Positions 39,963-56,650 of a stretch of DNA of 64,000 bases are shown here, one piece after another. Under the pieces are notes generated by a model. It ran no database searches. It worked only from the letters and a program-made list of their open reading frames with translations, and was not told the origin of the DNA. The position numbers and the translations under genes were made by a program. The stretch is from assembly GCF_001610835.1 (NCBI RefSeq), contig NZ_CP011270.1, positions 1,488,001-1,552,000 on the forward strand, in the 5' to 3' direction. Position 1 is the stretch's first letter. Every line of letters starts with the position of its first letter. The stretch comes from Planctomyces sp. SH-PL14. Its GTDB lineage: Bacteria; Planctomycetota; Planctomycetia; Planctomycetales; Planctomycetaceae.

Positions 39963-40354
39963 GGAAGCGGAAACCGCGGGAGGGAGGCGGAGAGGAGGAA
40001 CAGAGGAGCGAGAGGGGACGGCGAGGCTGCGGGCGGTTGTCAAACCGACAAACGGCTGGTCGGTCACCGCCAGGAAACCGGCCCGGACGGCCGTTCGGCG
40101 GGTTCCGCCGGTCCGTCACAGATTACCGCGTCGGCACGTTCACCGGCAGGTCGCCTTGGCGCAGAAGCGGCTGGAGCAGATCGCTGGGAACCTCAAGGAA
40201 GAACTGTTCTATTCATGGCCTCGCGAAAACCTGCTATGACCATGCTGGCGCAGAATTTGCCCGCATTGGCGGCGGGCGTGGGCATCGAACCTCGCGCCCG
40301 GGGCGGCAGGTGCCGCGATCAACGGATGGACCGGCCCGGATGGGCGGAGTTGCA

Positions 40355-42529
40355 ATGTCTGCTTCGATTCGTCTCGTCCTCGCTCTCCACAACCACCAGC
40401 CGGTCGGCAACTTCGACGGCGTCATCGACGCCGCCTACCTCGACAGCTACGGACCGTTCCTCGACCTCCTCGAGGAATTCCCCGAGATCCCGATCTCGCT
40501 GCATACGTCCGGCTGCCTGATGGAGTGGCTCGTCGCCCGCCGGCCCGAATACATCGAGCGGCTGCGGACCTTTGTCCGGCGGGGGCAGATCGAGCTCCTC
40601 GGCGGACCGTTCTACGAGCCGATCCTGGCCTGCATCCCCCGCCGCGACCGCGTCGGCCAGATCCAGCTCTACAGCCGCTTTCTGGAACAACTCTTTGGCG
40701 TGAAGGTCCGCGGGATGTGGGTCCCCGAGCGGGTCTGGGAACCGAGCTTCGCCGGCGACATCACCGAAGCGGGGATCGAGTTCACCCTCGTCGACGACTC
40801 CCACTTCAAGGCGGCCGGCCTCCACGAGGACAAGCTCCACGGCTACTACCTGACGGAGGACGAAGGCCGGCTCCTCAAGATCTTCCCGGACAGCGAGAAG
40901 CTCCGGTACACGATCCCCTTCGCCGAGGTGAACGAAACGATCGACTATCTCCGGGCCCTCTCGGAGAATGTCTCGAACGCCGTGGCGGTCTTCGGCGACG
41001 ACGGCGAGAAGTTCGGCGTCTGGCCGGGAACGCGGGAACACGTCTTCGAGAAGGGCTGGCTGCGGTCCTTCTTCGAGGAGCTGCGGGAGAACCGCGACTG
41101 GCTCCGCACGATCACGCTCGGCCAGGCGGTCGACGAAGTTCCCCCCCTGGGCCGGGTCTACCTGCCGAACGCCAGCTACCGCGAGATGACGGAGTGGGCT
41201 CTCGATACCGACCAGCAGATGGCGTATCGGGAACTCGTCGAGCAGCAGGAGAAAGAGGTCAACTGGGTCCAGCTCCGGCAGTTCGTCCGGGCCGGGTTCT
41301 GGCGGAACTTCCTCGTCAAGTACCCCGAGAGCAACGAGATGTACTGCCGGATGCGGGAGGTGAGCGACCGCATCGCCCGCGCGGGGACCGACGGGACCGC
41401 CCGCCCGGACCTCCTGGCCCAGGCCCAGACCGAGCTCTTCCGCGGCCAGTGCAACTGCCCCTACTGGCACGGCGCGTTCGGCGGCCTGTACCTCCCCCAC
41501 CTGCGGAACGCGATCTACCGCCACCTCATCGCGGCCGACACGCTCCTGGAGCAGGTCGACGGCCGGACCGGCCGTTGGGTCGACATCACCGCCGAGGACT
41601 ACAACCTCGACGCCCGCAAGGAAGTCCGGCTGGCGAGCGACCGCCTCGTCGCCTACTTCGCCCCGGCCCGCGGCGGACACCTCTATGAGCTCGACCTCCG
41701 CTCCACGCAGGTCAACCTGCTGGCGACGCTCAACCGCCGCCCCGAGCCGTACCACGCCAAGGTGATCGCCGCCGCGGAAAAGCAGAAGCAGGTCCAGGAC
41801 GGAGACATCCTCGACCTCAACGATCAGGTCAAGTTCAAGCAGCCCGACCTCGACCAGAAGATCCAGTACGACACCTGGCCCCGCAAGAGCCTCGTCGACC
41901 ACTTCCTGCAGCCCGGCCTTCCGCTGGAGGACTTCCAGCGGGGCCGCGGCGAGATCGGAAGCTTCGTCCAGGGGGTCTATGAGACCCGTCTCCGCCGCTC
42001 GGACACGCGGGTCGAAACGGTCATGACCCGCGAAGGCTACATGGGCGAGCACATCGTCCGGGTGACCAAGACCGTCGGTCTCGACACGACGCTCGGGAGT
42101 CTGCTCGACATCGAGTACGTCCTCGAAAAGCTGCCGGTCGGCGAGCGGATCCACTTTGCGGTCGAGTTCAACTTCGCCGCGATGGCCTCGGGGGCGGACG
42201 ACCGCTACTTCTACGGTTCGACCGGTCAGCAGATGGGCCAGCTCCAGACGGTCCACGACCTCGAGGAGCAGGACCGCATCGGCCTCGTCGACGAGTGGCT
42301 CGGCGTCGACGCCTCGCTCGACCTCTCGCAGCCGGGCGGAATCTGGACGACGCCGATCCAGACCGTCAGCCAGAGCGAAGGGGGCTTCGAACTCGTGCAC
42401 CAGAGCACGGCGGTGATTCCGCACTGGAACTTCGTGGCGGACGAGTCAGGCCGCTGGAGCGTCCGGATCCGGATGACCCTCGACACCTCGGCTGCCCAGG
42501 CCCGCATGCTGGCGACGGCCGGCGTCTGA
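40355..42529 (+). CDS. GH57 alpha-amylase/4-alpha-glucanotransferase-like enzyme
   Basis: This 724-aa cytoplasmic glycoside hydrolase of family 57 has its N-terminal catalytic barrel (1-~300) beginning with the family motif LALHNHQPVGNF. The nucleophile is Glu125 in MWVPERVWEP (equivalent to Glu123 of Thermococcus litoralis 4-alpha-glucanotransferase), and the acid/base is the Asp near 215 in VFGDDGEKFG. DUF1925-like (about 310-400) and DUF1926-like (about 450-715) beta domains follow, as in that enzyme. It acts on alpha-1,4-glucans; transfer versus hydrolysis cannot be told from sequence. CGGAG lies 6 nt before the ATG. A strong hairpin follows the stop. The 288 bp upstream hold no recognisable gene. 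Confidence 0.92.
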   Translation: MSASIRLVLALHNHQPVGNFDGVIDAAYLDSYGPFLDLLEEFPEIPISLHTSGCLMEWLVARRPEYIERLRTFVRRGQIELLGGPFYEPILACIPRRDRVGQIQLYSRFLEQLFGVKVRGMWVPERVWEPSFAGDITEAGIEFTLVDDSHFKAAGLHEDKLHGYYLTEDEGRLLKIFPDSEKLRYTIPFAEVNETIDYLRALSENVSNAVAVFGDDGEKFGVWPGTREHVFEKGWLRSFFEELRENRDWLRTITLGQAVDEVPPLGRVYLPNASYREMTEWALDTDQQMAYRELVEQQEKEVNWVQLRQFVRAGFWRNFLVKYPESNEMYCRMREVSDRIARAGTDGTARPDLLAQAQTELFRGQCNCPYWHGAFGGLYLPHLRNAIYRHLIAADTLLEQVDGRTGRWVDITAEDYNLDARKEVRLASDRLVAYFAPARGGHLYELDLRSTQVNLLATLNRRPEPYHAKVIAAAEKQKQVQDGDILDLNDQVKFKQPDLDQKIQYDTWPRKSLVDHFLQPGLPLEDFQRGRGEIGSFVQGVYETRLRRSDTRVETVMTREGYMGEHIVRVTKTVGLDTTLGSLLDIEYVLEKLPVGERIHFAVEFNFAAMASGADDRYFYGSTGQQMGQLQTVHDLEEQDRIGLVDEWLGVDASLDLSQPGGIWTTPIQTVSQSEGGFELVHQSTAVIPHWNFVADESGRWSVRIRMTLDTSAAQARMLATAGV

Positions 42530-42681: not shown

Positions 42682-43029
42682 CTATCCGGGGACGTGGCCG
42701 AACGACGGACGCCCCTTCTTCTCGCTCACCTTGCCGAGCTGTCGCTCCAGCATTTCGATCAGGCGGTCCAGCGTTCCGTTCACCGCCTGCATGACCGCGG
42801 GGGCTTGGAAGGAAACTGCGTAGGGCTTCAAACCGCCGATACGGGCTTCCATGAGACACCGCTTGTCGTCTCCGACCTCCTTCTCGCCATTCTCGTCGGC
42901 GAGGTGCACCTCGACGCGCGTGACCTGGGGCGAGAACCGGCTGAGTGCGGAGGTCACGGTCTGCTGAATCTCTTCCACGAGTCCGGCATGGGCCGCGATG
43001 TGACGATCGGTGCTGACCTGAACAAGCAT
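42682..43029 (-). CDS. hpf: HPF/RaiA-like ribosome hibernation factor
   Basis: This 115-aa protein of the ribosome-associated inhibitor/HPF fold starts MLVQVSTDRHI and continues with the beta-alpha pattern of the family: a helix of VEEIQQTVTSALSRF, the strand VTRVEVHLAD, and a second strand/helix around CLMEARIGG and AVNGTLDRLIEMLERQL. HPF binds the 30S A/P sites and shuts down translation in stationary phase. It lacks the long C-terminal extension of the long-form proteins. ATG 43029 was chosen because GGAGAG lies about 6 nt upstream. Residues after about 105 are a short basic tail. Confidence 0.8.
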   Translation of the reverse strand: MLVQVSTDRHIAAHAGLVEEIQQTVTSALSRFSPQVTRVEVHLADENGEKEVGDDKRCLMEARIGGLKPYAVSFQAPAVMQAVNGTLDRLIEMLERQLGKVSEKKGRPSFGHVPG

Positions 43030-43271
43030 CTCTTCTCTCCTTCCAACAACACGGAACGGAATCCGTCGCAACGGTCACAGATGACCGCAAACGACGTTCC
43101 AGACTTCGTCTTCGAGGGTTGGGCCTTCGAGGAGGAGCGACACGCCGATGCCCGGTTGCCGCTCCTGTGAATTGTACGGGGTGGCCGGGGCGGTGGATCA
43201 CAGAATCGGGGGCCTGTGGGGGCCATTCTGCAAATCGGAGCGGGCCGATGCTGGTGTCTCAGACATCTCGT

Positions 43272-43580
43272 TGCCGGCGCGGCTCTGCTACCTCAAACCC
43301 AACGTGCGACGGCAGTCGGGTCAAGGGGGCCTCGACCCCTTGCCGCCGGAGGCACTTCCATGAGGAACCGTCGGACACAACGGACGTCCGCTTGGTGTCA
43401 CCGGCGTTGAGGACTCACGGCCCGCTTTGCGATCCCGGCGGGGTGGTGAGGGGGGCATACGACACGTCGTCCGCGCTTGGGCACTCGCTCCTTCAGAACG
43501 ATCGAGACGAGACGGGCCTCCGGCGGGCAAAGGGGCCTTGCCCCCTTGCATCCCCCACCAGGGGTACCCCCTGGACCCCG
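43272..43580 (-). repeat. MITE-like dispersed repeat, copy 3 (reverse)
   Basis: This reverse-oriented copy of the 300-bp element contains GCCGGAGGCACTTCCATGAG near its left side (the family's right end) and CTCCGGCGGGCAAAGGGGCC near its right end. It fills most of the 43030-43708 gap. The 240 bp to its left (43030-43271) should include the HPF promoter on the minus strand but show no clear motif; the 128 bp to its right precede the asparagine-synthetase-like gene. Confidence 0.85.
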
Positions 43581-43708: not shown

Positions 43709-45031
43709 ATGCACTCCGAATACGTCGAACGACTCGTCAACCTGATGCAGCCGGAGCGCAACGCCATCCTCGGAATGACGCAGGCCGAAGCCGAAGAGCG
43801 GGTCCGCTCCGGCAATCCCGCCCGCGTCCGCGAGATCGATGGCCACTTCGCCATCGTCACCAAGGACGGGAAGAGCGTCCGGATGGCCCGCTCCCTCGGC
43901 CGTCCCATGCGGTACTTCCTGGCCAAACGATCCGAGGGACCCTGCCTCATCGTCGCCGAACGGATCGACGAGATTCACCGCTTCCTGCAAAGCGAAGGGC
44001 TCGACGGCCAGTTCCACCCCTCCTACACCCGCATGGTCCCGGCCCACCACCTCCTGGAACTGCAGCTCATCGGCTGCCCCGACCCGAATCCCGGCCTCAC
44101 GCGGTTCTTCGTCCCCGAGCGGAACCGCCTCTCGTCCGACCTCGACGACATCGGCCGCCGCTACATCGGAGCCCTGGCGACCGAAATCAACCGCTGGCTC
44201 GACCGCGTCGAACCCCGGGCCCCCATCGGCGTCCTGTTCTCCGGAGGGATCGACAGCGGAGCGGTCTTCCTGGCGGCCTATCACACGCTGCTGAAGCGGG
44301 GCGAATCGCCCGCGCGGCTCAAGTGCTTCACCCTCACCGTGGAGGGAGGAGCGGACGGCGATCAGGCCCGCACCTTCCTGAAGGAACTGGGACTCGAGCT
44401 GTTCCTCGAGACCGTCGCCGTTCCGCCAACGGCGCTCGACTTCCGCGAAGCGATCCGGGTCATCGAGGACTACAAGCCGCTCGACGTCCAGGCGGCCACG
44501 ATGGGACTCGCCCTCTGCCGCGAAGTCCGTCGCCGCTATCCCGAGTGGCGATATCTCATCGACGGCGACGGAGGAGATGAGAACCTCAAAGACTACCCGA
44601 TCGAAGACAACCCGGAGCTGACGATCCGCAGCGTCCTGAACAATCCGCTCCTCTATCACGAGGGCTGGGGAGTCGGAGCAGTGAAGCACTCGCTGACCTA
44701 CTCCGGCGGCCAGAGCCGCGGCCACGTCCGCTCCTCCGCTCCTCCGGCGGCGTTCGGGTTTGAAGGGTTCAGCCCGTTCGCGCTCCCGAACGTGATCGAC
44801 GTCGCCGAGGGGATTCCGTTCATCGAGCTGACCGACTGGAGCCACGAGAAGCTCTACTCGCTCAAGGGAGAGATCGTCCGCCGCGGCGTCCGGGCTGTGA
44901 CCGGACATGAAATGCCGGTCTACGAGAAGCGCCGCTTTCAGCGGGGGGCGGTCGCGGACTCGCTGTTCGAGGGCCTCTTTCCCCGCGACGAACTCACGTA
45001 CCGCCGGGCCTTCGCGGCGCTGTACGAGTGA
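43709..45031 (+). CDS. asparagine-synthetase-like ATP-dependent ligase lacking the glutaminase nucleophile
   Basis: This 440-aa protein has the two-domain plan of AsnB. The C-terminal synthetase domain carries the ATP-pyrophosphatase loop FSGGIDSGAVFLA (about 176-188), then the conserved YLIDGDGGDENLKDYP. The N-terminal ~150 residues keep a recognisable Ntn/GATase shape (GHFAIVTKDGKSVRMARSLG, then CLIVAERIDEI), but the protein starts Met-His-Ser-Glu with no Cys at position 2. It cannot use glutamine as the nitrogen donor in the usual way. Such inactive-Ntn proteins include beta-lactam synthetase and the lasso-peptide cyclase McjC, which adenylate a carboxylate and close an amide ring. The next gene begins at its stop codon (GTGA overlap). 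A tailoring or biosynthetic role with the radical SAM and FAD enzymes is inferred. Confidence 0.85.
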   Translation: MHSEYVERLVNLMQPERNAILGMTQAEAEERVRSGNPARVREIDGHFAIVTKDGKSVRMARSLGRPMRYFLAKRSEGPCLIVAERIDEIHRFLQSEGLDGQFHPSYTRMVPAHHLLELQLIGCPDPNPGLTRFFVPERNRLSSDLDDIGRRYIGALATEINRWLDRVEPRAPIGVLFSGGIDSGAVFLAAYHTLLKRGESPARLKCFTLTVEGGADGDQARTFLKELGLELFLETVAVPPTALDFREAIRVIEDYKPLDVQAATMGLALCREVRRRYPEWRYLIDGDGGDENLKDYPIEDNPELTIRSVLNNPLLYHEGWGVGAVKHSLTYSGGQSRGHVRSSAPPAAFGFEGFSPFALPNVIDVAEGIPFIELTDWSHEKLYSLKGEIVRRGVRAVTGHEMPVYEKRRFQRGAVADSLFEGLFPRDELTYRRAFAALYE

Positions 45032-46077
45032 CACGGCCGGTGGAACATCGTCCGATGAACGCGGTCCGATCGAAACCGGTCGGACGAGGAATCTCTCCGT
45101 CGACCGTGCCCGCTCCCCGCTACACCACCGAGCAGATCCTGGCCGCGCGGGGAGACCGGAACGATGTCGCGGCCGACCGCCCCTATGCGTTCTTGGTCGA
45201 GCGGGAACGGGCGGCAAGTGGCGACATTGTCGACGTCGCGACGCTGTTCCTGACGAACCGCGAGTGCCCGTTCCACTGCCTGATGTGCGACCTGTGGAAG
45301 AACACGACGCAGGAGTCCGTTCCCCCGGGCGCCATCCCGGCCCAGATTGACCATGCTCTCTCGCGTCTCCCGCCCACGCGACACATCAAGCTCTACAACA
45401 GCGGCAACTTCTTCGACCCGAAGGCCATCCCCCACGAGGATCACGCGGCGATCGCCGACCAGGTCCGCCGCTTCGATCACGTGATCGTCGAGAACCATCC
45501 GCGGCTTGTCGGCGACGAGGTCCTGCGTTTCCGCGACCGGATCGCGCCGGCCACGTTCGAGGTCGCGATGGGACTCGAAACGATCCACCCCGAAGTGCTG
45601 CCCGCCTTGAACAAGGGGATGACGCTCGACGACTTCGATCGGGCGGCGGAGTTTCTCCGATCGAACGGGATCGCGGTCCGGGCCTTCATCCTGCTGCGAC
45701 CGCCATTTCTCTCCGACGATGAAGGGCTCGACTGGGCCCTGCGATCGATCGACCATGCGTTCGCCGTCGGCGTCAGCTGCTGCTCGGTCGTCCCGACTCG
45801 TGCCGGCAATGGCCTGCTTGAGGAACTGCAGCACCGCGGCGAGTTCGCCCCTCCGTCGCTCCAGTCGATGGAGCGCGTGCAGGCCGAAGGGATCGCCCGT
45901 GGCCTGCGGCTCCGACCGGAGGATGCCCGAGTGTTCCTCGACACCTGGGACCTGGAGCGGTTTGCTCCCTGCCCACAGTGCCGCGACGCGCGGCGGGCCC
46001 GGCTGGAGACCATGAACCGGGAGCAGGTTGTCCTTCCTTCCGTGTCGTGTCCTGGCGACTGTCTCCTCCACTCCTGA
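45028..46077 (+). CDS. radical SAM enzyme
   Basis: This 349-aa radical SAM protein binds its [4Fe-4S] cluster by C80-x3-C84-x2-C87 in NRECPFHCLMCDLWKNTT, close to the canonical CxxxCxxC. The TIM-barrel continues with IKLYNSGNFFDP (SAM-binding GGE-like position) and VAMGLETIHPEVLPALNKGMT. Further cysteines near the C-terminus (CPQC and CPGDC) could hold a second metal centre. The overall pattern resembles the Elp3-like/archaeosine RaSEA-type group (TIGR01210), but the substrate is not predictable. The GTG start overlaps the preceding stop by 4 nt and the FAD gene follows after 9 bp, so all three should be co-expressed. Confidence 0.87.
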   Translation: MTRPVEHRPMNAVRSKPVGRGISPSTVPAPRYTTEQILAARGDRNDVAADRPYAFLVERERAASGDIVDVATLFLTNRECPFHCLMCDLWKNTTQESVPPGAIPAQIDHALSRLPPTRHIKLYNSGNFFDPKAIPHEDHAAIADQVRRFDHVIVENHPRLVGDEVLRFRDRIAPATFEVAMGLETIHPEVLPALNKGMTLDDFDRAAEFLRSNGIAVRAFILLRPPFLSDDEGLDWALRSIDHAFAVGVSCCSVVPTRAGNGLLEELQHRGEFAPPSLQSMERVQAEGIARGLRLRPEDARVFLDTWDLERFAPCPQCRDARRARLETMNREQVVLPSVSCPGDCLLHS

Positions 46078-46086
46078 AACCTGTCG

Positions 46087-47619
46087 ATGACACCGGAACC
46101 GTTCGATATCGCGATCCTCGGCGGCGGCTTCGGCGGAACGATCACCGCCCTCGTCCTGCACCGGCTGGGCTTCCGCGTGATCGTGATCGACCGCGGCGTT
46201 CATCCGCGGTTCGCGATCGGTGAGTCCTCGACCCCGATCGCGGACCTGGTCCTCCGCGATCTGGCGATCCGGTACGACCTCCCGCGGCTGCTGCCCCTCG
46301 TCAAGTACGGAACCTGGAAGGCGGCCTACCCGGACGTGACGTGCGGCCTCAAGCGCGGGTTCTCGTACTATGAACAGCCCCAGGGGGAGCGGTTCGCGCC
46401 GCGGGAGGATCACGCGAACGAACTGCTCGTCGCGGCCAGCCACGACAATGCCCGGTCCGACACCCACTGGTTCCGGGCCGACGTTGACGCCTTCCTGGCC
46501 CGCGAGGTGACCGACGCCGGCATTCCGTACCTCGACCGGACCGAGGTGACGATCGGAGCCACGGGACCATGGCTCCTGATGGCCCGCCGCATCGGCGAAA
46601 TGAGACCGATCACGGCGCAGTTCCTGATCGACGGAACCGGAGATGCGGGAGTCCTCAAGGGCTATCTCGGGCTCCGCGATCAGGCGGAGCGGCTCAAGAC
46701 GCACTCACGGGCGCTGTTCGCACACTTTGCCGGTGTGAAACGGTGGGGGCCGCTCATCGAGGAACGGGGCGCGAACGTCACCGACCATCCGTTCCCGACC
46801 GACGACGCCGCCCAGCACATGGTCCTGCCGCGGGGATGGATGTGGCAGCTCCGGTTCGATACCGACGTCACGAGCCTGGGGTTCATGCTCGACACGCGGC
46901 ACGACCCGCTCGACACGTCCCTCTCCCCCTCCGAGGAATGGGAGGAATGGCTCCGCCGCTTCCCGTCGATCGCCGACCAGCTTGCAGGGGCGGCGCTCGT
47001 CGATCCTCCCGGCGGACTGCGGCGGACGGGACGGATCCAGCGGTGGATTGATCGGGCCGCGGGGCCCGACTGGGCGCTGCTGCCCCACAGTGCGGGGTTT
47101 ATTGATCCGCTCAACAGCACCGGGATCGCTCACACGCTCTGCGGGATCGAGAAGCTGGCCCTCGCCTTCGAAAGATCGTTCGGCAAACCGGCGCTCGCCG
47201 ATGAGATGGCGACGTACGCCGAAGCGGTCTCCCGCGAGATCGAGCTCATCGACGAACTGATCTCCGGCTGCTTCGACGCCATGCCGCACTTCCCCGCATT
47301 CGTCACGTGGTCGATGGTCTACTTCGCCGTTGTCACCAGTTACGAGCATGGCCGTTCGATGGGGGAGATCCCTCCCGGCACGCCGTTCCTCGGCGCCGAC
47401 TCGGAAGCGCGGTGGAGCATGGTCCGAGGCGCTCGCCAAAAACTGATGGACCGGCTCTCTCGCATCGAAGACAAAGCGAGCGAATCATCAGCGCGCTCAG
47501 AAGCCGACGCATGGTTGAGTGAACATGTCTGCCAGGCGATCGCCCCTTACAACATCGCCGGGCTCTGCAATCCGCAGGTCAAGAACATGTATCGATATAC
47601 GGCGGCCGACAAAGGGTGA
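46087..47619 (+). CDS. flavin-dependent halogenase-like oxidoreductase
   Basis: This 510-aa FAD protein begins with a dinucleotide-binding motif (IAILGGGFGGTITALVL), followed by the halogenase-family GESSTP motif and a late FAD motif (AGFIDPLNSTGIAHTLCG). True flavin-dependent halogenases carry WxWxIP. Here the aligned segment reads RGWMWQLRFDTD, keeping both Trp residues but not Ile-Pro. It may be a halogenase with altered specificity or a dehydrogenase/monooxygenase of the same superfamily. It is the third gene of the ligase-radical SAM-FAD cluster; together these suggest modification of a small molecule or peptide. No partner flavin reductase is seen nearby. Confidence 0.85.
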   Translation: MTPEPFDIAILGGGFGGTITALVLHRLGFRVIVIDRGVHPRFAIGESSTPIADLVLRDLAIRYDLPRLLPLVKYGTWKAAYPDVTCGLKRGFSYYEQPQGERFAPREDHANELLVAASHDNARSDTHWFRADVDAFLAREVTDAGIPYLDRTEVTIGATGPWLLMARRIGEMRPITAQFLIDGTGDAGVLKGYLGLRDQAERLKTHSRALFAHFAGVKRWGPLIEERGANVTDHPFPTDDAAQHMVLPRGWMWQLRFDTDVTSLGFMLDTRHDPLDTSLSPSEEWEEWLRRFPSIADQLAGAALVDPPGGLRRTGRIQRWIDRAAGPDWALLPHSAGFIDPLNSTGIAHTLCGIEKLALAFERSFGKPALADEMATYAEAVSREIELIDELISGCFDAMPHFPAFVTWSMVYFAVVTSYEHGRSMGEIPPGTPFLGADSEARWSMVRGARQKLMDRLSRIEDKASESSARSEADAWLSEHVCQAIAPYNIAGLCNPQVKNMYRYTAADKG

Positions 47620-49944: not shown

Positions 49945-50730
49945 GTGCCGAGCCGGGACGGAGGCGATGTCAAAGGCTGCTCAGTGTCCGTGTCCCACGC
50001 TTCCGCTCTTTCGTCGGCGATCGCCGATGCTCTCGAATACCACCCGTCGCCCTCCTCGCCCCTTCCCCCAGTCTCAACCAGGCCGGCCTCCCGCGGGACC
50101 TGGACTCCTGCCCGGGAACACATCTGGGCCGGAGTGTGGGTTGTCTGCGTCGTCGCGGGTCTGGGCGGGATCCTCAGTTATGAGATGACTCCCGCGGAGT
50201 CCGGGAACTCGGCTTCCCACTGGCCGGCCGCGACTTCGATCCCGCTGGCGGCCGACCGTCTCACGCTGGTGATGTTCGTCCACCCCCGCTGCCCGTGCAC
50301 CCGCGCCAGTCTCACCGAGCTGTCGTCCGTCCTGCAGCGGTCCGACCAGCCTGTTTCCGCCCATGCCGTCATCCTCCGGCCCGACCAGGTCGACCAGACG
50401 TGGGGTAACGGTGCGATCCGCGATCAGGTCGGCGCGATTCCCGGCCTCGCGGCGCGGGAGGATGCCGGGGGAACGGAGCACCGCACCTTCGGAGCCCGGA
50501 CGTCGGGCGAAGTCTTCGTCTTCCGTCCTTCCGGCGAACTCCTCTTTCACGGCGGAGTCACGGCGGGACGCGGGCACGCCGGGCCGAACGCCGGCACCCA
50601 GGCCCTCGACAACCTCCTGATCGGGCTCGCCCCGCGAGTCCGGCAGACGCCGGTCTACGGATGCGGCCTCGAATGCCGAGCGTCGCGAACCGCGCACGCT
50701 GACCTCCTCCCGAACGGAGCGACGCGATGA
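49945..50730 (+). CDS. RedB-like membrane-anchored thioredoxin-fold protein
   Basis: This 261-aa protein has one membrane helix (about 61-79, [19 protein letters not shown]) and a thioredoxin-like domain (about 95-220) with the motif [16 protein letters not shown], where CPC replaces the usual CxxC. The latter half includes [24 protein letters not shown], typical of the fold. This resembles proteins annotated RedB, whose function is unknown to me. The start is GTG, and the first 55 residues are low-complexity, so a later start is possible. Its stop overlaps the sensor kinase start (ATGA), which suggests it acts with that kinase, perhaps passing on periplasmic redox or metal state. Confidence 0.75.
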
Positions 50731-52928
50731 AGAGCGACTTTCCTCCTGAGATCCTCCGGCCGCGGGCCCGTTCCGCTTACCTCGTGTATCGTGAGCGGAT
50801 CCACCGCCGGACCGACCGGATGTTCGCCGTCCTGCTCCTCCTGGAGTGGGCGGGGGCGGTCATCTGGGCGCTGCTCGCCTCGCCGCGGACGTGGTCCGGG
50901 ACGGAGAGCGCGATCCATCCGCACGTCGTCATGGCAGTCGTGGGTGGCGGCCTCCTCTGCAGTCTGCCGGTCCCCCTGGCGTGGTTCCGTCCCGGCCAGG
51001 CGGTGACGCGGTACTGCATCGCGGTCGCCCAGATCCTCTTTTCGTCGCTGCTGATTCATATCAGCGGCGGGCGGCTCGAGACGCACTTTCACATCTTCGG
51101 ATCGCTGGCGTTCCTGGCGGCGTACCGGGACTGGGGGCTCCTGATTCCCCCCACGATCATCACCGCCCTCGACCACTTCGTGCGGGGCTGGTTCTGGCCG
51201 GAAAGCATCTATGGAATCTCGTCCGCCAGCCACTGGCGGTGGATGGAGCACGCCGCGTGGGTGCTGTTCGAAGACATCTTCCTCGTGATCTCGATCCTGC
51301 AGAGCCGCCAGGAACTCCAGCTGCTCTCCGAGCAGTCGGCCGAACGGGAACTGCACCAGGAGCGTCTGGAACAGATCGTCGCGTCCCGCACGGAAGAGCT
51401 GCGGGGGGCCAAGGAGGAGGCGGAAGCGGCCAGCCGGGCGAAGTCCACGTTCCTGGCCAACATGTCGCATGAGATCCGGACCCCGATTACGGCGATCACC
51501 GGCTACTCGGAGCTGCTGCTCGATCCCGCGCACGCCGACGACGACCGGGCGGAGTCGCTGCAGATCATCCGCCGCAGCTCCCGGCACCTCGTCGACATCA
51601 TCAACGACATCCTCGACATCAGCAAAATCGAGGCGGGAAAGATGTCGGTCGAGCGGATCCCCGTCGCCGTCCCGAACATCGCCAGCGACGTCGTGTCGCT
51701 GATGCGGCCCACCGCGATCACCAAGGGGCTCTCGCTGCGGCTGAGCTTCGGCGGCCCGGTCCCGCGGAAGATCCAGTGCGATCCGGTCCGGCTCCGGCAG
51801 ATCCTCGTCAACCTCGTCGGCAACGCCGTCAAGTTCACCGAGCAGGGGCAGATCCATCTCAAGCTCTCGACGCACGTCGAAGAGAACCAGGGCTGGCTCC
51901 GGTTCGAGGTCCTGGACACCGGCATCGGCATGACGCCGGCCCAGCTCGGCCGGATCTTCCAGCCGTTCACCCAGGCGGACGAATCGACGACGCGGCAGTT
52001 CGGAGGCTCGGGACTGGGGCTGGCCATCTCGAAGCGTCTGTCGGAACTCCTGGGGGGGCGCCTGACAGTCGACTCCGTCGCCGGACTGGGAAGCCGGTTC
52101 CAGGTCGAAATCCCCATCGGACCGGCTGCGGAGCTCGACCTGGTCGATGCCGAGAGCGAAACGGGGCTGCTCGTCTCCGAACCGGCCGCCGTCACGAACA
52201 CGATCCGGCTGAAGGCCCGGATCCTGCTGGCCGAGGACGGCCCGGAAAACCAGAAGCTGATCTCGCTCCATCTCCGCAAGGCGGGAGCGGAGGTCGTGAT
52301 CGCGGAGAACGGACGGGTGGCGGTGTCGCTCGCCTCGTCCCAGCCGTTCGACCTGATCCTGATGGATATGCAGATGCCCGAGATGGACGGGTACGCCGCG
52401 ACTCGGGAACTCAGAAACCGCGACGTGGCCCTCCCGATCATCGCGCTCACCGCCCATGCGATGGCCGAGGACCGCAAACGGTGCCTCGACGCCGGATGCA
52501 CCGACTACCTGACGAAGCCGATCGACCGCCAGACGCTGCTCGCCACGCTCGCCCGGCATCTCCCGGCGGAGGCGACGGAAGAGGCGGCGCCGGTCCTGCT
52601 GATGAGCTCGTACGCCGACGACCCGGACATGCTCGAAGTCATCGAGGAGTTCGTCGAGTCGCTGCCGGCGAAGGTCACCCTGCTGCGGCGGCTGCTCGAC
52701 CGGGAAGAGACCGCCGAGCTGCAGCGGGTCCTGCACCAGGTCAAGGGGGCTGGTGGGGGCTACGGCTTCGCGATGATCACGGCCCGCGCGGACGCGGCCG
52801 GAACAGTGCTCAAGGAGGGGAAGGAGATGACCCAGGTCCGGCAATCCGTCGAGGAGCTGATCGGCGTCATGGAATCGGTCGACGGCTATGTCTTGTCCGG
52901 AGAACGGGAGGTCGCGCATGTCGGTTAG
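50727..52928 (+). CDS. hybrid sensor histidine kinase (TM-HisKA-HATPase-REC-HPt)
   Basis: This 733-aa kinase has about five N-terminal membrane helices (about 30-195), including the His-rich segment [23 protein letters not shown], which lies in or near the membrane and could bind metal or haem. A short coiled coil (about 195-240) leads to HisKA with phospho-acceptor His248 in [10 protein letters not shown]. HATPase follows (N, G1, F and G2 boxes such as DTGIGM and [10 protein letters not shown]), then a receiver with the Asp near 547 in [13 protein letters not shown], and a C-terminal HPt domain (His near 670 in [12 protein letters not shown]). It overlaps the RedB-like gene and the next gene (response regulator/diguanylate cyclase), giving a complete phosphorelay in one operon. 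Confidence 0.93.
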
Positions 52929-53865
52929 CAACATTCTCATCATCGATGACTCGCCGGAGATTCACGCCCTGGTGCGGGTCCGTCTCAAGAACGAGCCGGT
53001 AGCGATCCATTCCGCGTTCAACGGAGCGAGCGGAGTCGAGCTGGCGCAGGCCCTCGGCGTCGACCTGATTCTCCTCGACGTCGAGATGCCCGAGCAGGAC
53101 GGCTTCGAAGTCTGTTCAATCCTCAAGAACCACGCGGCGACGCGAGACGTTCCGATCATCTTCCTGACGGGCTCGGGCTCGACCCAGGACAAGATCCGCG
53201 GGCTCGAGTTGGGAGCGACCGACTACGTCACCAAGCCGTTCGACCCGGCGGAACTGCGGGCCCGGGTGCGGGCCTCGCTCCGGACCCGGCACCTGATGGA
53301 CCTTCTGGCCAAGCGGGCGATGATCGACGGCCTGACCGGCCTCCACAACCGCTTCTACCTGGACGCCCAGCTGACGCTGGCGCTCACGGCGGCCCGACGG
53401 TCCGGCGAGCCGCTCTCCTGCGTCATGGCGGACGTCGACTACTTCAAGCGGATCAACGACGAGTGCGGCCACCAGTTCGGGGATGATGTCCTCCGGAAGA
53501 TCGGTTCGATCCTGACCGACGTAAGCCGTGACGGGGACATCGTCTGCCGCTACGGCGGCGAGGAGTTCACGATCCTGATGCCGAACACGTCGCTGCGGGT
53601 CGCCATCGCCGCCACGGAACGGCTGCGGCGGGCGATCGAGACGACCGAATTCTGGTTCCACGACCGCCGCGTGCCGGTGACGTGCAGCTTCGGGGTTGCC
53701 CGGCTGGGCGAAACGATCCCCCCCACGGTGATCGAGCTGGCGGACCAGGCCCTGTACCGCGCGAAGCGGGGGGGCCGCAACCAGGTCCAGATGTGTCTCC
53801 TGAACGATCCCGACGCGGAAGTCGAGGTGGCTCCGGAGGCAACGGCGGACCTGTCGCCGCTCTGA
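52918..53865 (+). CDS. response regulator with diguanylate cyclase (REC-GGDEF)
   Basis: This 315-aa PleD-like output protein has a receiver domain (1-~120) with IIDDSPE and the phospho-Asp in [13 protein letters not shown], then a GGDEF domain with an intact active site YGGEEF (about 212-217) and the allosteric I-site RDGD five residues earlier. It should make cyclic-di-GMP when phosphorylated, with product inhibition. The ATG at 52918 has GGGAGG upstream and lies inside the kinase gene's end (11-nt overlap). It is the terminal gene of the RedB-kinase-cyclase operon, linking the membrane signal to c-di-GMP. Confidence 0.95.
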
Positions 53866-54000: not shown

Positions 54001-55359
54001 ATGAACGGACGACACGACTTGCGGGGAACGGACGGAGAGATCGTCATTGTGGGAGGCGGAATGGCAGGCCTCGTGGCCGCCAACTTCGCGGCCGGATCCG
54101 GGCACAAGGTCCTCCTGCTGGAGAAGGGCCAGGAGATCGGCGGGCGAGCCGGAACGACGGTCCGCGACGGCGTGTCGTTCAACATGGGGCCGCACGCCCT
54201 CTACTGTCACGGGGCGCTCTTCCGGGCCCTGCACGAGCTCCAGGTTCCGTTTCACGGCGCTCCCCCCAATCCGGGACGGAGCCTGTTCCTGACGGAGCAG
54301 AGCGTCTACCGCTTCCCGCAAACGTTCTGGCAGGTCCTCGTCTCGCGGCTCCTGAACTTCCGCGAGCGACGGTTGTTCCTGCAGATCCTGGGACGCGGCA
54401 TCGCTACCGATCCGCGAACTCTCGATTCCACGTCGGTCGCCGACTGGATCCGACAGCTGGCGGGGACCGGACGCCTTGCCGACCTGTTCCACACTCTGAT
54501 GCGGCTCACGACCTTTGTGAACGACCCCGAGCACCAATCGGCCGGGGCGACGCTGGAGCAGTTCCAGATGGGGCAGAAGGGGGGCGTCTGGTATGTCGAC
54601 GGGGGCTGGACGTCGCTCGTCGAAGGCCTGCGGCGGCGAGCGGTCGAACGAGGTGTCGCGGTCCGCTCCAGCGCGGCGGCCAAGCATGTCCGCACCGGCC
54701 CGAATGGCACGGAGATCGAGCTGACGGACGGGACGCGCGTCAGGGCCGGGGCGGCCATCCTCGCGGTCCCGCCGGCCGAGGCGGTCGGCCTGCTTGACCT
54801 CGATGAAGACCATCCGCTCCACGGGTTCAATCGCACGCGGCGGGTGGGCCGGTGCGCGTGTCTCGATATCGCCCTGAAGCGTCTCCCCCGGCCGGACGAG
54901 CGGTTTACGCTGGGGCTCGATTCCCCTCTGTATTTCTCCGTCCACTCGTCGGCCGCGAAGCTCGGTCCCGACGGCGTGGCGGTCGCTCACGTCATGAAGT
55001 ATCTCCCGGCCGACGAGCCGGTTCAGCATGAGGAGACGCGGAACGAGCTCGAAACCATGCTCGATCGCATCCAGCCCGGCTGGCGAGCGGAGGTCGTCAC
55101 GTCACGGTACCTCCCGAACATGACGGCCGTCCCCGCGATTCCGACGATCGACACCCGTGGGACGCAGGACCGCCCGGACACGGCCGTCGTCGGCCGGCCG
55201 GGGATCTTCCTGGCGGGGGACTGGGTCGGTCGGCAGGGACAGCTCGTCGACGCCTCGGCGGCGAGCGGTCGGACGGCCGCCGCGGCCGCGATCGGGTCGC
55301 TGTCCGGCAGCACGGCGCCCGCGACCCGTCGTCACGGTCCCGTGCTGCTCGACGTTTGA
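54001..55359 (+). CDS. FAD-dependent amine-oxidase/phytoene-desaturase-like oxidoreductase
   Basis: This 452-aa flavoprotein has an N-terminal FAD motif IVIVGGGMAGLVAANFA and EKGQEIGGRAGTT (arginine fingerprint of the desaturase/amine-oxidase superfamily), a middle motif GVWYVDGGWTSLVEGL, and a C-terminal FAD motif RPGIFLAGDWVGRQGQLVDAS. It belongs to the NAD(P)/FAD-dependent oxidoreductases that include carotenoid desaturases, but no carotenoid genes are adjacent. GGGAGAG precedes the ATG. It is under a consensus ECF41 promoter and co-oriented with the ECF41 sigma gene 70 bp downstream. Oxidoreductases are typical ECF41 partners. Confidence 0.88.
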   Translation: MNGRHDLRGTDGEIVIVGGGMAGLVAANFAAGSGHKVLLLEKGQEIGGRAGTTVRDGVSFNMGPHALYCHGALFRALHELQVPFHGAPPNPGRSLFLTEQSVYRFPQTFWQVLVSRLLNFRERRLFLQILGRGIATDPRTLDSTSVADWIRQLAGTGRLADLFHTLMRLTTFVNDPEHQSAGATLEQFQMGQKGGVWYVDGGWTSLVEGLRRRAVERGVAVRSSAAAKHVRTGPNGTEIELTDGTRVRAGAAILAVPPAEAVGLLDLDEDHPLHGFNRTRRVGRCACLDIALKRLPRPDERFTLGLDSPLYFSVHSSAAKLGPDGVAVAHVMKYLPADEPVQHEETRNELETMLDRIQPGWRAEVVTSRYLPNMTAVPAIPTIDTRGTQDRPDTAVVGRPGIFLAGDWVGRQGQLVDASAASGRTAAAAAIGSLSGSTAPATRRHGPVLLDV

Positions 55360-55429
55360 CTTATCATCCCGGAACTTGCGGTCCCGGCCCCGCCGGATTG
55401 ACCAAGAAAAGCGTTGCAGGAGAGCGATC

Positions 55430-56332
55430 GTGGTCAGCGGACCTTCGGACAACCTGGCGGAGTATCAGGCGCTCCGCGACGAGCTCGGACGGATCGCGTA
55501 CCGGATGCTCGGCTCGCTGGCGGATGTCGACGACGTCCTCCAGGAGGCGTACCTGCGGTGGTCGCGAGTCGACCTGAAGGAGGTCGAATCTCCGCGGGCC
55601 TTTCTGATCTCGATCGTGACGCGGCTCTGCATTGACCGACGGCGGGAGATCGACATTCGCAAGGAACATTACCCGGGGCCCTGGCTCCCCGAACCGATCG
55701 TGACGTCATCCCAGGGGGCAGGCGTGCCTGTAGAGCGGGACGAGTCGGTCTCGCTGGCGTTCCTGTACGTCCTCGAGCGGCTGACGCCGGTGGAGCGGGC
55801 GGCGTATCTGCTTCGGAAGGTGTTCGACTTTGAATACGCGGAGCTGAGCAGCATCCTCGACAAGTCGGTCGACAACTGCCGGCAGATCGTCTCGCGGGCC
55901 GAGACGCGGGTCATGGAAGGCCGTCCGCGGTTCACTCCTTCTTCGCAGGACGTTTCCGACCTGAGCGAGCGGTTCCTGGCGGCGTGCGCCTCGGGGGATC
56001 TGCAGGGGCTGCTGTCGATCCTCCGCAGCGATGCCGAGCTGATCTCGGACGGTGGAGGAAAGGCGACGGCGGCGCGGCGGCCGATTCTGGGCGCGGACGC
56101 GATTGCCCGGTTCTTCCTGGGGATCTTCCGCAAGGCGCCGCCGGGAGGTCGGGCGGAGCGGATCGAGGTCAACGGGCAGCCGGGGTTGGCGTTGCTGGTC
56201 GGGACCGCGATGGTGGGGATTTATGCCTTCGATGTGGAGGAGGGGCAGATTCGCGGGATTTATGTGATCCGGAATCCGGACAAGCTGGTGCGGGCTTCGA
56301 TTGGCGGGCCGACGGGAGAGAGTGGTGCCTAG
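55430..56332 (+). CDS. sigJ: ECF41 sigma factor with SnoaL-like C-terminal domain
   Basis: This 300-aa sigma factor has regions 2 and 4 in the first ~200 residues (EYQALRDELGRIAYRMLGSLADVDDVLQEAYLRW; then LTPVERAAYLLRKVFDFEYAELSSIL). A C-terminal SnoaL-like domain of about 110 residues follows. Three signature motifs of the ECF41 group are present: WLPEP in the linker, SDGGGK in the extension, and NPDKL at the end. In this group the extension modulates sigma activity in place of a separate anti-sigma. The GTG start at 55430 has AGGAGA upstream. It should act on the TGTCACA promoter before the oxidoreductase gene and so on its own operon. Confidence 0.93.
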   Translation: MVSGPSDNLAEYQALRDELGRIAYRMLGSLADVDDVLQEAYLRWSRVDLKEVESPRAFLISIVTRLCIDRRREIDIRKEHYPGPWLPEPIVTSSQGAGVPVERDESVSLAFLYVLERLTPVERAAYLLRKVFDFEYAELSSILDKSVDNCRQIVSRAETRVMEGRPRFTPSSQDVSDLSERFLAACASGDLQGLLSILRSDAELISDGGGKATAARRPILGADAIARFFLGIFRKAPPGGRAERIEVNGQPGLALLVGTAMVGIYAFDVEEGQIRGIYVIRNPDKLVRASIGGPTGESGA

Positions 56333-56335
56333 CAT

Positions 56336-56650
56336 CGGGGTCCAGGGGGTACCCCTGGTGGGAGTGCAGAGGGGCAACGCTCCTTTGCCCGCCGGAGGCC
56401 TGGCCGTCGAGAGATGTCTGAAGGAGTGAGTGTCCAAACACGGACACCGTGCCGTGTGCCCCCTCACCAACCCGCTACGAGTGCGGAGCGAGCGGAGAGT
56501 TCTCAACGCAGGTACCACAAAGGGGACATCCGTTGTGTACCACGGTTCCTCACAGGAAGTGCCTCCGGCGGCAAGGGGGCGTGGCCCCCTTGACCCCAGG
56601 CTGCCGTCGCAAGTTGGGCTTGAGCTATCAGAGTCGTGCCGGCATGAACG
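56336..56650 (+). repeat. MITE-like dispersed repeat, copy 2 (forward)
   Basis: This is the second forward copy, highly similar to copy 1 over its full length, beginning GGGTCCAGGGGGTACCCCTG and including CTGAAGGAGTGAGTGTCCAA and CTCCGGCGGCAAGGGGGCGT near the right end. It begins within a few bases of the ECF41 stop and fills the gap to the convergent glycosyltransferase gene, so it may also serve as the terminator there. Confidence 0.87.

Follow-up and report, generated by a model that had tools for sequence, protein, structure and literature searches.

Background

Beta-lactam synthetase and carbapenam synthetase resemble the asparagine synthetase AsnB and lack a nucleophilic cysteine, and beta-lactam synthetase acts on a clavam substrate with a Tyr-Glu catalytic dyad. 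In archaeosine formation, ArcS adds lysine to preQ0 in transfer RNA (tRNA) and the radical S-adenosylmethionine (SAM) enzyme RaSEA turns the resulting preQ0-Lys into archaeosine, according to PMC11298593. In the ammosamide C pathway, the flavin halogenase Amm3 is paired with the asparagine-synthase-like Amm20, as described in PMC12715798. Here we report on three neighbouring genes, hereafter the trio, that lie in a 64,000-nucleotide stretch of the Planctomyces sp. SH-PL14 genome (8.44 Mb in a single contig, NZ_CP011270.1, positions 1,488,001 to 1,552,000 of the forward strand); this stretch is called the window, and its numbering is used throughout. The trio encodes an AsnB-like ligase, a radical SAM protein and a halogenase-like flavoenzyme. 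The genetic coupling of the three genes is firm, the superfamily of each enzyme is clear, and each enzyme is a new subfamily of its known superfamily. We tentatively propose that the genes encode one dedicated pathway, for which a small aromatic amide or lactam would be the likeliest product. To our knowledge, this combination of three enzymes has no counterpart, and no paper recognised as being about the trio was found in open-licence PMC full text, where the ammosamide C pathway came closest.

Results

The three genes are all on the plus strand, with the ligase gene at 43709-45031 (440 amino acids), the radical SAM gene at 45028-46077 (349 amino acids) and the flavoenzyme gene at 46087-47619 (510 amino acids). 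Reading of the open reading frames (ORFs) confirmed the tight arrangement given in a preliminary description of this DNA: the GTG start of the radical SAM gene overlaps the TGA stop of the ligase gene, sharing the letters GTGA, and the gap between the radical SAM stop and the flavoenzyme gene is 9 bases. The start of the radical SAM protein itself is uncertain, with homology to 21 orthologues beginning anywhere from residue 4 to 37, and from 23 to 37 in 17 of the 21.

The coupling was followed in 59 related genomes, the window's own included, scoring the ligase and the radical SAM protein as present at E values of about 1e-50 or better and the flavoenzyme at 1e-60 or better. Ligase and radical SAM protein occurred together in 21 genomes, the ligase alone in none, the radical SAM protein alone in one (G010, 79% complete), and neither in 37 (Fisher P 4e-15, a test that treats related genomes as independent). 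When the nine genomes carrying both on one contig were removed, the counts became 12, 0, 1 and 37 (P 1e-10), with the caveat that separate contigs are not necessarily far apart and that short contigs can hide linkage. For ligase and flavoenzyme, 18 genomes had both, three the ligase only, two the flavoenzyme only and 36 neither (P 3e-10); the two with a flavoenzyme and no ligase are G010, which has the radical SAM protein, and G014, at 79% and 78% completeness. Weaker matches were scored as absent for the radical SAM protein in G014 and G039, for the ligase in G044 and G048 and for the flavoenzyme in G007, whose distant homologue (E 1.7e-33) lacks the catalytic lysine and which has neither of the other two proteins. 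Sequence identities of ligase and radical SAM protein correlate across 16 genomes of the family (rho 0.54), as against 0.37 for the ligase and 0.25 for the radical SAM protein with RpoB. Full-length RpoB was available in 18 of the 21 carriers, 16 of which were used for these family tests; an RpoB motif used as a sanity check matched 0 of the 18 frames, and their identity as RpoB rests on profile matches and 65-86% mutual identity.

Beyond these relatives, a ligase scan of one genome per species was used, taking as loci the best 80 of 551 stretches that matched at E 1e-3 or better. All 80 are at least 62% identical to the window ligase, while other AsnB-like enzymes may be among the remainder of the 551. 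Going by record titles, the 80 loci and the window comprise 65 Planctomycetota, six Bacteroidota, three Balneolota, two Rhodothermota, one Acidobacteriota and four without a phylum, the window among the last; a metagenome bin may carry a wrong title. The carriers titled as cultured organisms, which span three phyla, are Roseithermus sacchariphilus, Fodinibius sediminis, Rhodopirellula rubra and strain CA13. A radical SAM gene is near the ligase in 41 of the 80 loci, a flavoenzyme gene in 32, and all three genes are together in 31, of which 28 keep the order and strand seen in the window. In the loci titled outside Planctomycetota, the radical SAM gene is within about 1.6 kb of the ligase gene in 12 of 12 (in one, L182, an opposing gene lies between them), and the flavoenzyme gene is at the locus in nine and elsewhere in the genome in the other three. 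When 50 ligase-bearing genomes from the 80 loci were searched whole, the radical SAM protein was found in 45 and the flavoenzyme in 47; a match in G092 is partial and weak (E 1e-21). No radical SAM gene lies beside the ligase gene in 39 of the 50, and 34 of these 39 have one elsewhere; genes missing from this set may reflect incomplete bins. These tallies are partly dependent on those above, as nine of the 80 loci belong to the 59 relatives, seven of them within the set of 50.

Of 195 planctomycete genomes drawn evenly and at least 90% complete, 16 had the ligase; all 16 belong to one or other of two families in the class of the window genome, and presence of the ligase varied inside the genus codes g5, g29 and g49. 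Because of this limited and variable presence, the trio is an accessory trait. Eleven of the genomes were newly drawn, and in all eleven the ligase and radical SAM genes are neighbours, at distances of up to 200 bases in ten and up to 1.1 kb in one; the flavoenzyme gene adjoins them in five, and the other six all belong to genus code g56. Phyla are intermixed in the ligase tree, which suggests transfer; the deep branches of the tree are weak, however, and a single origin is possible for Planctomycetota.

The ligase matched PF00733 (Asn_synthase, E 9e-14) and scored 46.7 bits against TIGR01536, the glutamine-dependent asparagine synthetase model, under its cut-off of 267.1. Its predicted structure, with a mean predicted local distance difference test (pLDDT) score of 84.2, matched beta-lactam synthetase best (1mc1, Z 26.1, root-mean-square deviation 3.1 over 365 aligned residues), followed by Escherichia coli AsnB (1ct9, Z 24.2) and carbapenam synthetase (Z 21.9). 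The ligase shares with these synthetases the fold and the AsnB-type adenosine triphosphate (ATP) loop, and differs in its 12-18% identity to them, in a shorter N-terminal domain and in its partners, which here are radical SAM and halogenase-like enzymes. The loop, SGGIDS at residues 178-183 (44240-44257, plus strand), binds pyrophosphate in such enzymes, and S178, G179, G180, D182 and S183 are each kept in 81 of 81 rows; further strongly conserved segments are DGDGGDENLKDYP, EDYKPLD and GGQSRGH. Since the structural alignment begins with ligase residue 3 at beta-lactam synthetase residue 40, the model indicates that the glutaminase domain lacks roughly its first 37 residues, the cysteine among them, as the preliminary description had held for the cysteine. 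That description had also named a normal AsnB with a misplaced start and a true Cys2 as the outcome that would overturn it. This candidate was rejected on two grounds, the structural alignment and the position of upstream stops: 64 of 80 homologous loci have an in-frame stop less than 37 codons before the aligned start, so that a missed start with Cys2 is excluded there; the remaining 16 have a longer open frame upstream, and for them the start position alone does not decide.

The radical SAM protein belongs to its superfamily by PF04055 (34.2 bits, cut-off 29.5). Its best profile is TIGR01210, the RaSEA model, at 119.7 bits, under the equivalog cut-off of 212.15; this model matched 22 of 22 members of the family, the window protein having the best E value of the 22. 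The MnmL/YtqA profile also matched the window protein, and among the 22 the PhpK P-methyltransferase profile matched eight, the same frequency as MnmL. The CxxxCxxC motif (C80, C84 and C87; 45265-45288, plus strand) is invariant in 42 of 42 rows. The cysteines near the C-terminus, C315, C318, C341 and C345 (45970-46062, plus strand), to which the preliminary description had also pointed, are present in the window and may form a second metal site, but they are not universal, being kept in 38, 38, 36 and 39 of the 42 rows, respectively. These 42 rows, and the 33 rows used for the flavoenzyme below, are those above 150 bits located beside a ligase gene. The predicted structure of the protein has a pLDDT of 91.7, and the best profile match among solved structures was queuine lyase (E 0.0011).

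The flavoenzyme matched PF04820 (Trp_halogenase, E 2.5e-12, 46.9 bits, cut-off 21). Its nearest solved relatives are tetracycline 7-halogenase (7xgb/7v0b, E 8e-50), which we take to be CtcP, and the phenolic halogenase PltM (E 9e-33 and 2e-32), and a profile search of solved structures confirmed tetracycline and phenolic halogenases as nearest. Shared with these enzymes are the flavin adenine dinucleotide fold, the GES motif (33 of 33 rows; GESSTP in the window), the WxW tryptophans (W251 in 31 of 31 and W253 in 30 of 31 ungapped rows) and a catalytic lysine. Lys89 (46351-46353, plus strand), kept in 33 of 33 rows, aligns with what is probably catalytic Lys87 of PltM, the numbering of the PDB chain being shifted by a tag; PltM K87A is inactive according to PMC6424973. 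About 100 residues at the C-terminus of the flavoenzyme lie outside the alignment to these halogenases. The counterpart of the halogenase WxWxIP motif, identified by alignment to the solved halogenases, is WMWQLR (46837-46854, plus strand; WMWQLRF in the window). The earlier statement that GESSTP and WMW are kept and WxWxIP is absent is correct for the window protein, but relatives vary, and in their own alignment the proline is present in 5 of 20 ungapped rows and the whole motif in two (G019 and G030). G007 and a split copy in G010 were excluded from one alignment.

No fourth pathway gene recurs near the trio, either within about 10 kb in the relatives or within 8 kb in the 80 loci among the first 60 clusters compared. 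The clusters that did recur were the trio genes, ORFs antisense to them, large planctomycete paralogue families and synteny of close relatives; an ABC-transporter ATPase was present somewhere in the surrounding stretches of 6 of 22 genomes. No small ORF that could encode a precursor peptide was conserved across distant loci within 700 bases 5′ of the ligase or 3′ of a linked flavoenzyme. The lack of a recurring neighbour or small ORF disfavours a ribosomally synthesised and post-translationally modified peptide (RiPP) whose precursor is linked, and likewise an antibiotic cluster of the classic kind, regulated and exported.

Several further features of the window were recorded, the genes being judged by eye. 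Upstream of the trio are a GH57-type glycoside hydrolase-like gene (40037-42529) and a gene for a small ribosome-hibernation-factor-like protein (42682-43071), neither of which recurs near the trio among the relatives compared. Downstream, a gene for a hybrid histidine kinase overlaps the next one, for a response-regulator/GGDEF protein (50727-53865), and a gene for a phytoene-desaturase-like FAD oxidoreductase precedes one for a sigma-70-like factor (54001-56332). A 19-base element, AGGGGTACCCCCTGGACCC, occurs in identical copies at 43560-43578 (plus strand) and 56338-56356 (minus strand), outside the trio genes, with a chance expectation in the window of 0.02 matches when up to three mismatches are allowed; it may be a dispersed repeat. 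Searches of the window for RNA families at gathering scores, for defence systems with PADLOC and for plasmid similarity gave no match.

Discussion

For the chemistry of the pathway, with an order of steps taken from gene order alone, we infer the following. The ligase would form an acyl-adenylate (acyl-AMP) from a carboxylate and join it to an amine supplied by the substrate or by an amino acid; as the ligase has no glutaminase, this amine would have to come with a substrate. The radical SAM protein, like RaSEA and queuine lyase, would then cleave or rearrange the new C-N-linked group by hydrogen-atom abstraction, and the nitrogen would stay behind as an amide or amine. Such a ligate-then-cleave scheme is suggested by the ArcS-RaSEA precedent, in which, by PMC11298593, a transferase likewise couples an amino acid to its substrate, giving an adduct on which a homologous radical SAM enzyme then works. 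The trio differs in having an ATP-using AsnB-like ligase in the place of ArcS and in the added flavoenzyme. This last enzyme would halogenate, or less likely hydroxylate, an aromatic ring, and a free phenol-like ring is favoured because the nearest relatives are carrier-free halogenases and PltM is phenolic. The small aromatic product would thus be made with neither a carrier protein nor a precursor peptide. The ammosamide C pathway, in contrast, builds its product on a precursor peptide by means of PEARLs, and no RaSEA-like radical SAM enzyme was found in the portion of PMC12715798 available. The boldest form of the scheme, which we consider unlikely, is a single undescribed pathway, present in cultured organisms of three phyla and, going by bin titles, in a further two, that makes a halogenated small molecule or a halogenated modification of a cell component by glutaminase-free, ligate-then-cleave nitrogen transfer. 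In it the ligase would attach an amino acid and the RaSEA-like enzyme would remove the carbon part of that amino acid, which would apply the logic of archaeosine to an unrelated substrate.

Several observations weigh against the proposal of a dedicated small-molecule pathway, beginning with the limits on the co-occurrence statistics given above. Flavoenzyme distances track RpoB (rho 0.47) better than they track the ligase (0.34) or the radical SAM protein (0.32), and three of the 21 ligase genomes (G012, G027 and G050, the latter two 99% complete) have no flavoenzyme, so that its step may be dispensable. Among solved structures, the sequence profile of the ligase finds asparagine synthetases at E about 2e-5, with no beta-lactam synthetase among the matches listed. 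The fold of the radical SAM protein matches queuine lyase, Elp3, the biotin synthase BioB and HydE in a tie at Z 16-17, and this tie leaves the reaction unfixed by family. Halogenation is uncertain because the proline of WxWxIP is usually arginine (23 of the 31 ungapped rows of the loci alignment, as against 2 with proline). Finally, neither regulator nor export genes recur beside the trio, which is unusual for a secreted metabolite. In G050, a divergent ligase (49%) and a radical SAM gene form a pair at L068 9602-12012 with no flavoenzyme match at 1e-20, and this pair may represent an abbreviated version of the pathway.

The absence of a recurring export gene fits better with the strongest alternative, in which the target of the trio is a cellular macromolecule, such as tRNA, ribosomal RNA or a protein residue, with the ligase installing an amino-acid-like group, the radical SAM enzyme trimming it and the flavoenzyme oxidising it. 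We regard this as a serious possibility, if a doubtful one. The RaSEA and MnmL/YtqA profiles that match the window protein are those of named RNA-modification enzymes, the flavoenzyme profile matches include QhpG and the GoxB/LodB maturases, which act on peptides, and ligase identity within the family averages 67%, against 75% for RpoB. On the other side, the nearest solved flavoenzymes are tetracycline and phenolic halogenases, the fold relatives of the ligase are small-molecule enzymes, and the trait is accessory, the ligase being present in 16 of the 195 planctomycetes and variable within genera.

The preliminary description had called the trio an uncharacterised small-molecule, peptide or RNA modification pathway, which is as much as the evidence compels one to say; a peptide route and a preQ0/archaeosine route are now weaker. 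In the peptide route, the AsnB-like enzyme would be a macrocyclase, like a lasso cyclase, acting on a ribosomal peptide. A truncated AsnB-like ligase does resemble lasso cyclases in design, and halogenases and radical SAM enzymes occur in RiPP clusters. However, neither a linked precursor nor a leader peptidase is conserved in the flanks of the 80 loci, although unlinked, distant or hypervariable ones are possible; no other neighbour is conserved, and no lasso-cyclase model is among the NCBIfam matches. A RiPP pathway is therefore improbable.

More improbable still is an archaeosine- or queuosine-like pathway, with a 7-deazaguanine as the substrate of the ligase and trimming of the product by the RaSEA-like enzyme. 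The uniform RaSEA match of the family and the similarity to queuine lyase speak for it, as does QueC, which exceeds its cut-off in 54 of the 59 related genomes, the window's included. Outside Planctomycetota, however, QueC was over the cut-off in 0 of 13 carriers (12 by title and one unplaced), as against 15 of 15 others searched; among the 13 are the isolate Fodinibius sediminis and Roseithermus with its complete chromosome, and weak matches scored 66 and 45 bits where the cut-off is 150. G012 (93% complete) has ligase and radical SAM protein with no match to QueC or QueF, while QueF in 57 and QueA in 58 of the 59 relatives (56 over the cut-off) are near-universal whatever the status of the trio. 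Together with a radical SAM score below the RaSEA cut-off, this absence of QueC outside Planctomycetota sets the trio apart from ArcS-RaSEA, and it makes preQ0 of the cell's own synthesis an improbable general substrate for the trio; uptake is possible. That the genes are unrelated neighbours by chance deserves almost no credence: many planctomycetes do have them on different contigs, but their co-occurrence when apart and their adjacency in a common order across phyla contradict it, as they do the picture of homologues scattered and never together against which the preliminary description had set its claim.

Conclusions

Three enzymes kept together across phyla point to an unnamed metabolite or modification that is worth selecting for. 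As no other conserved partner was found, the whole set can be expressed in a laboratory host and its product sought directly. If the proposed ligate-then-cleave scheme holds, the trio could represent a second use of radical SAM cleavage for passing on nitrogen.

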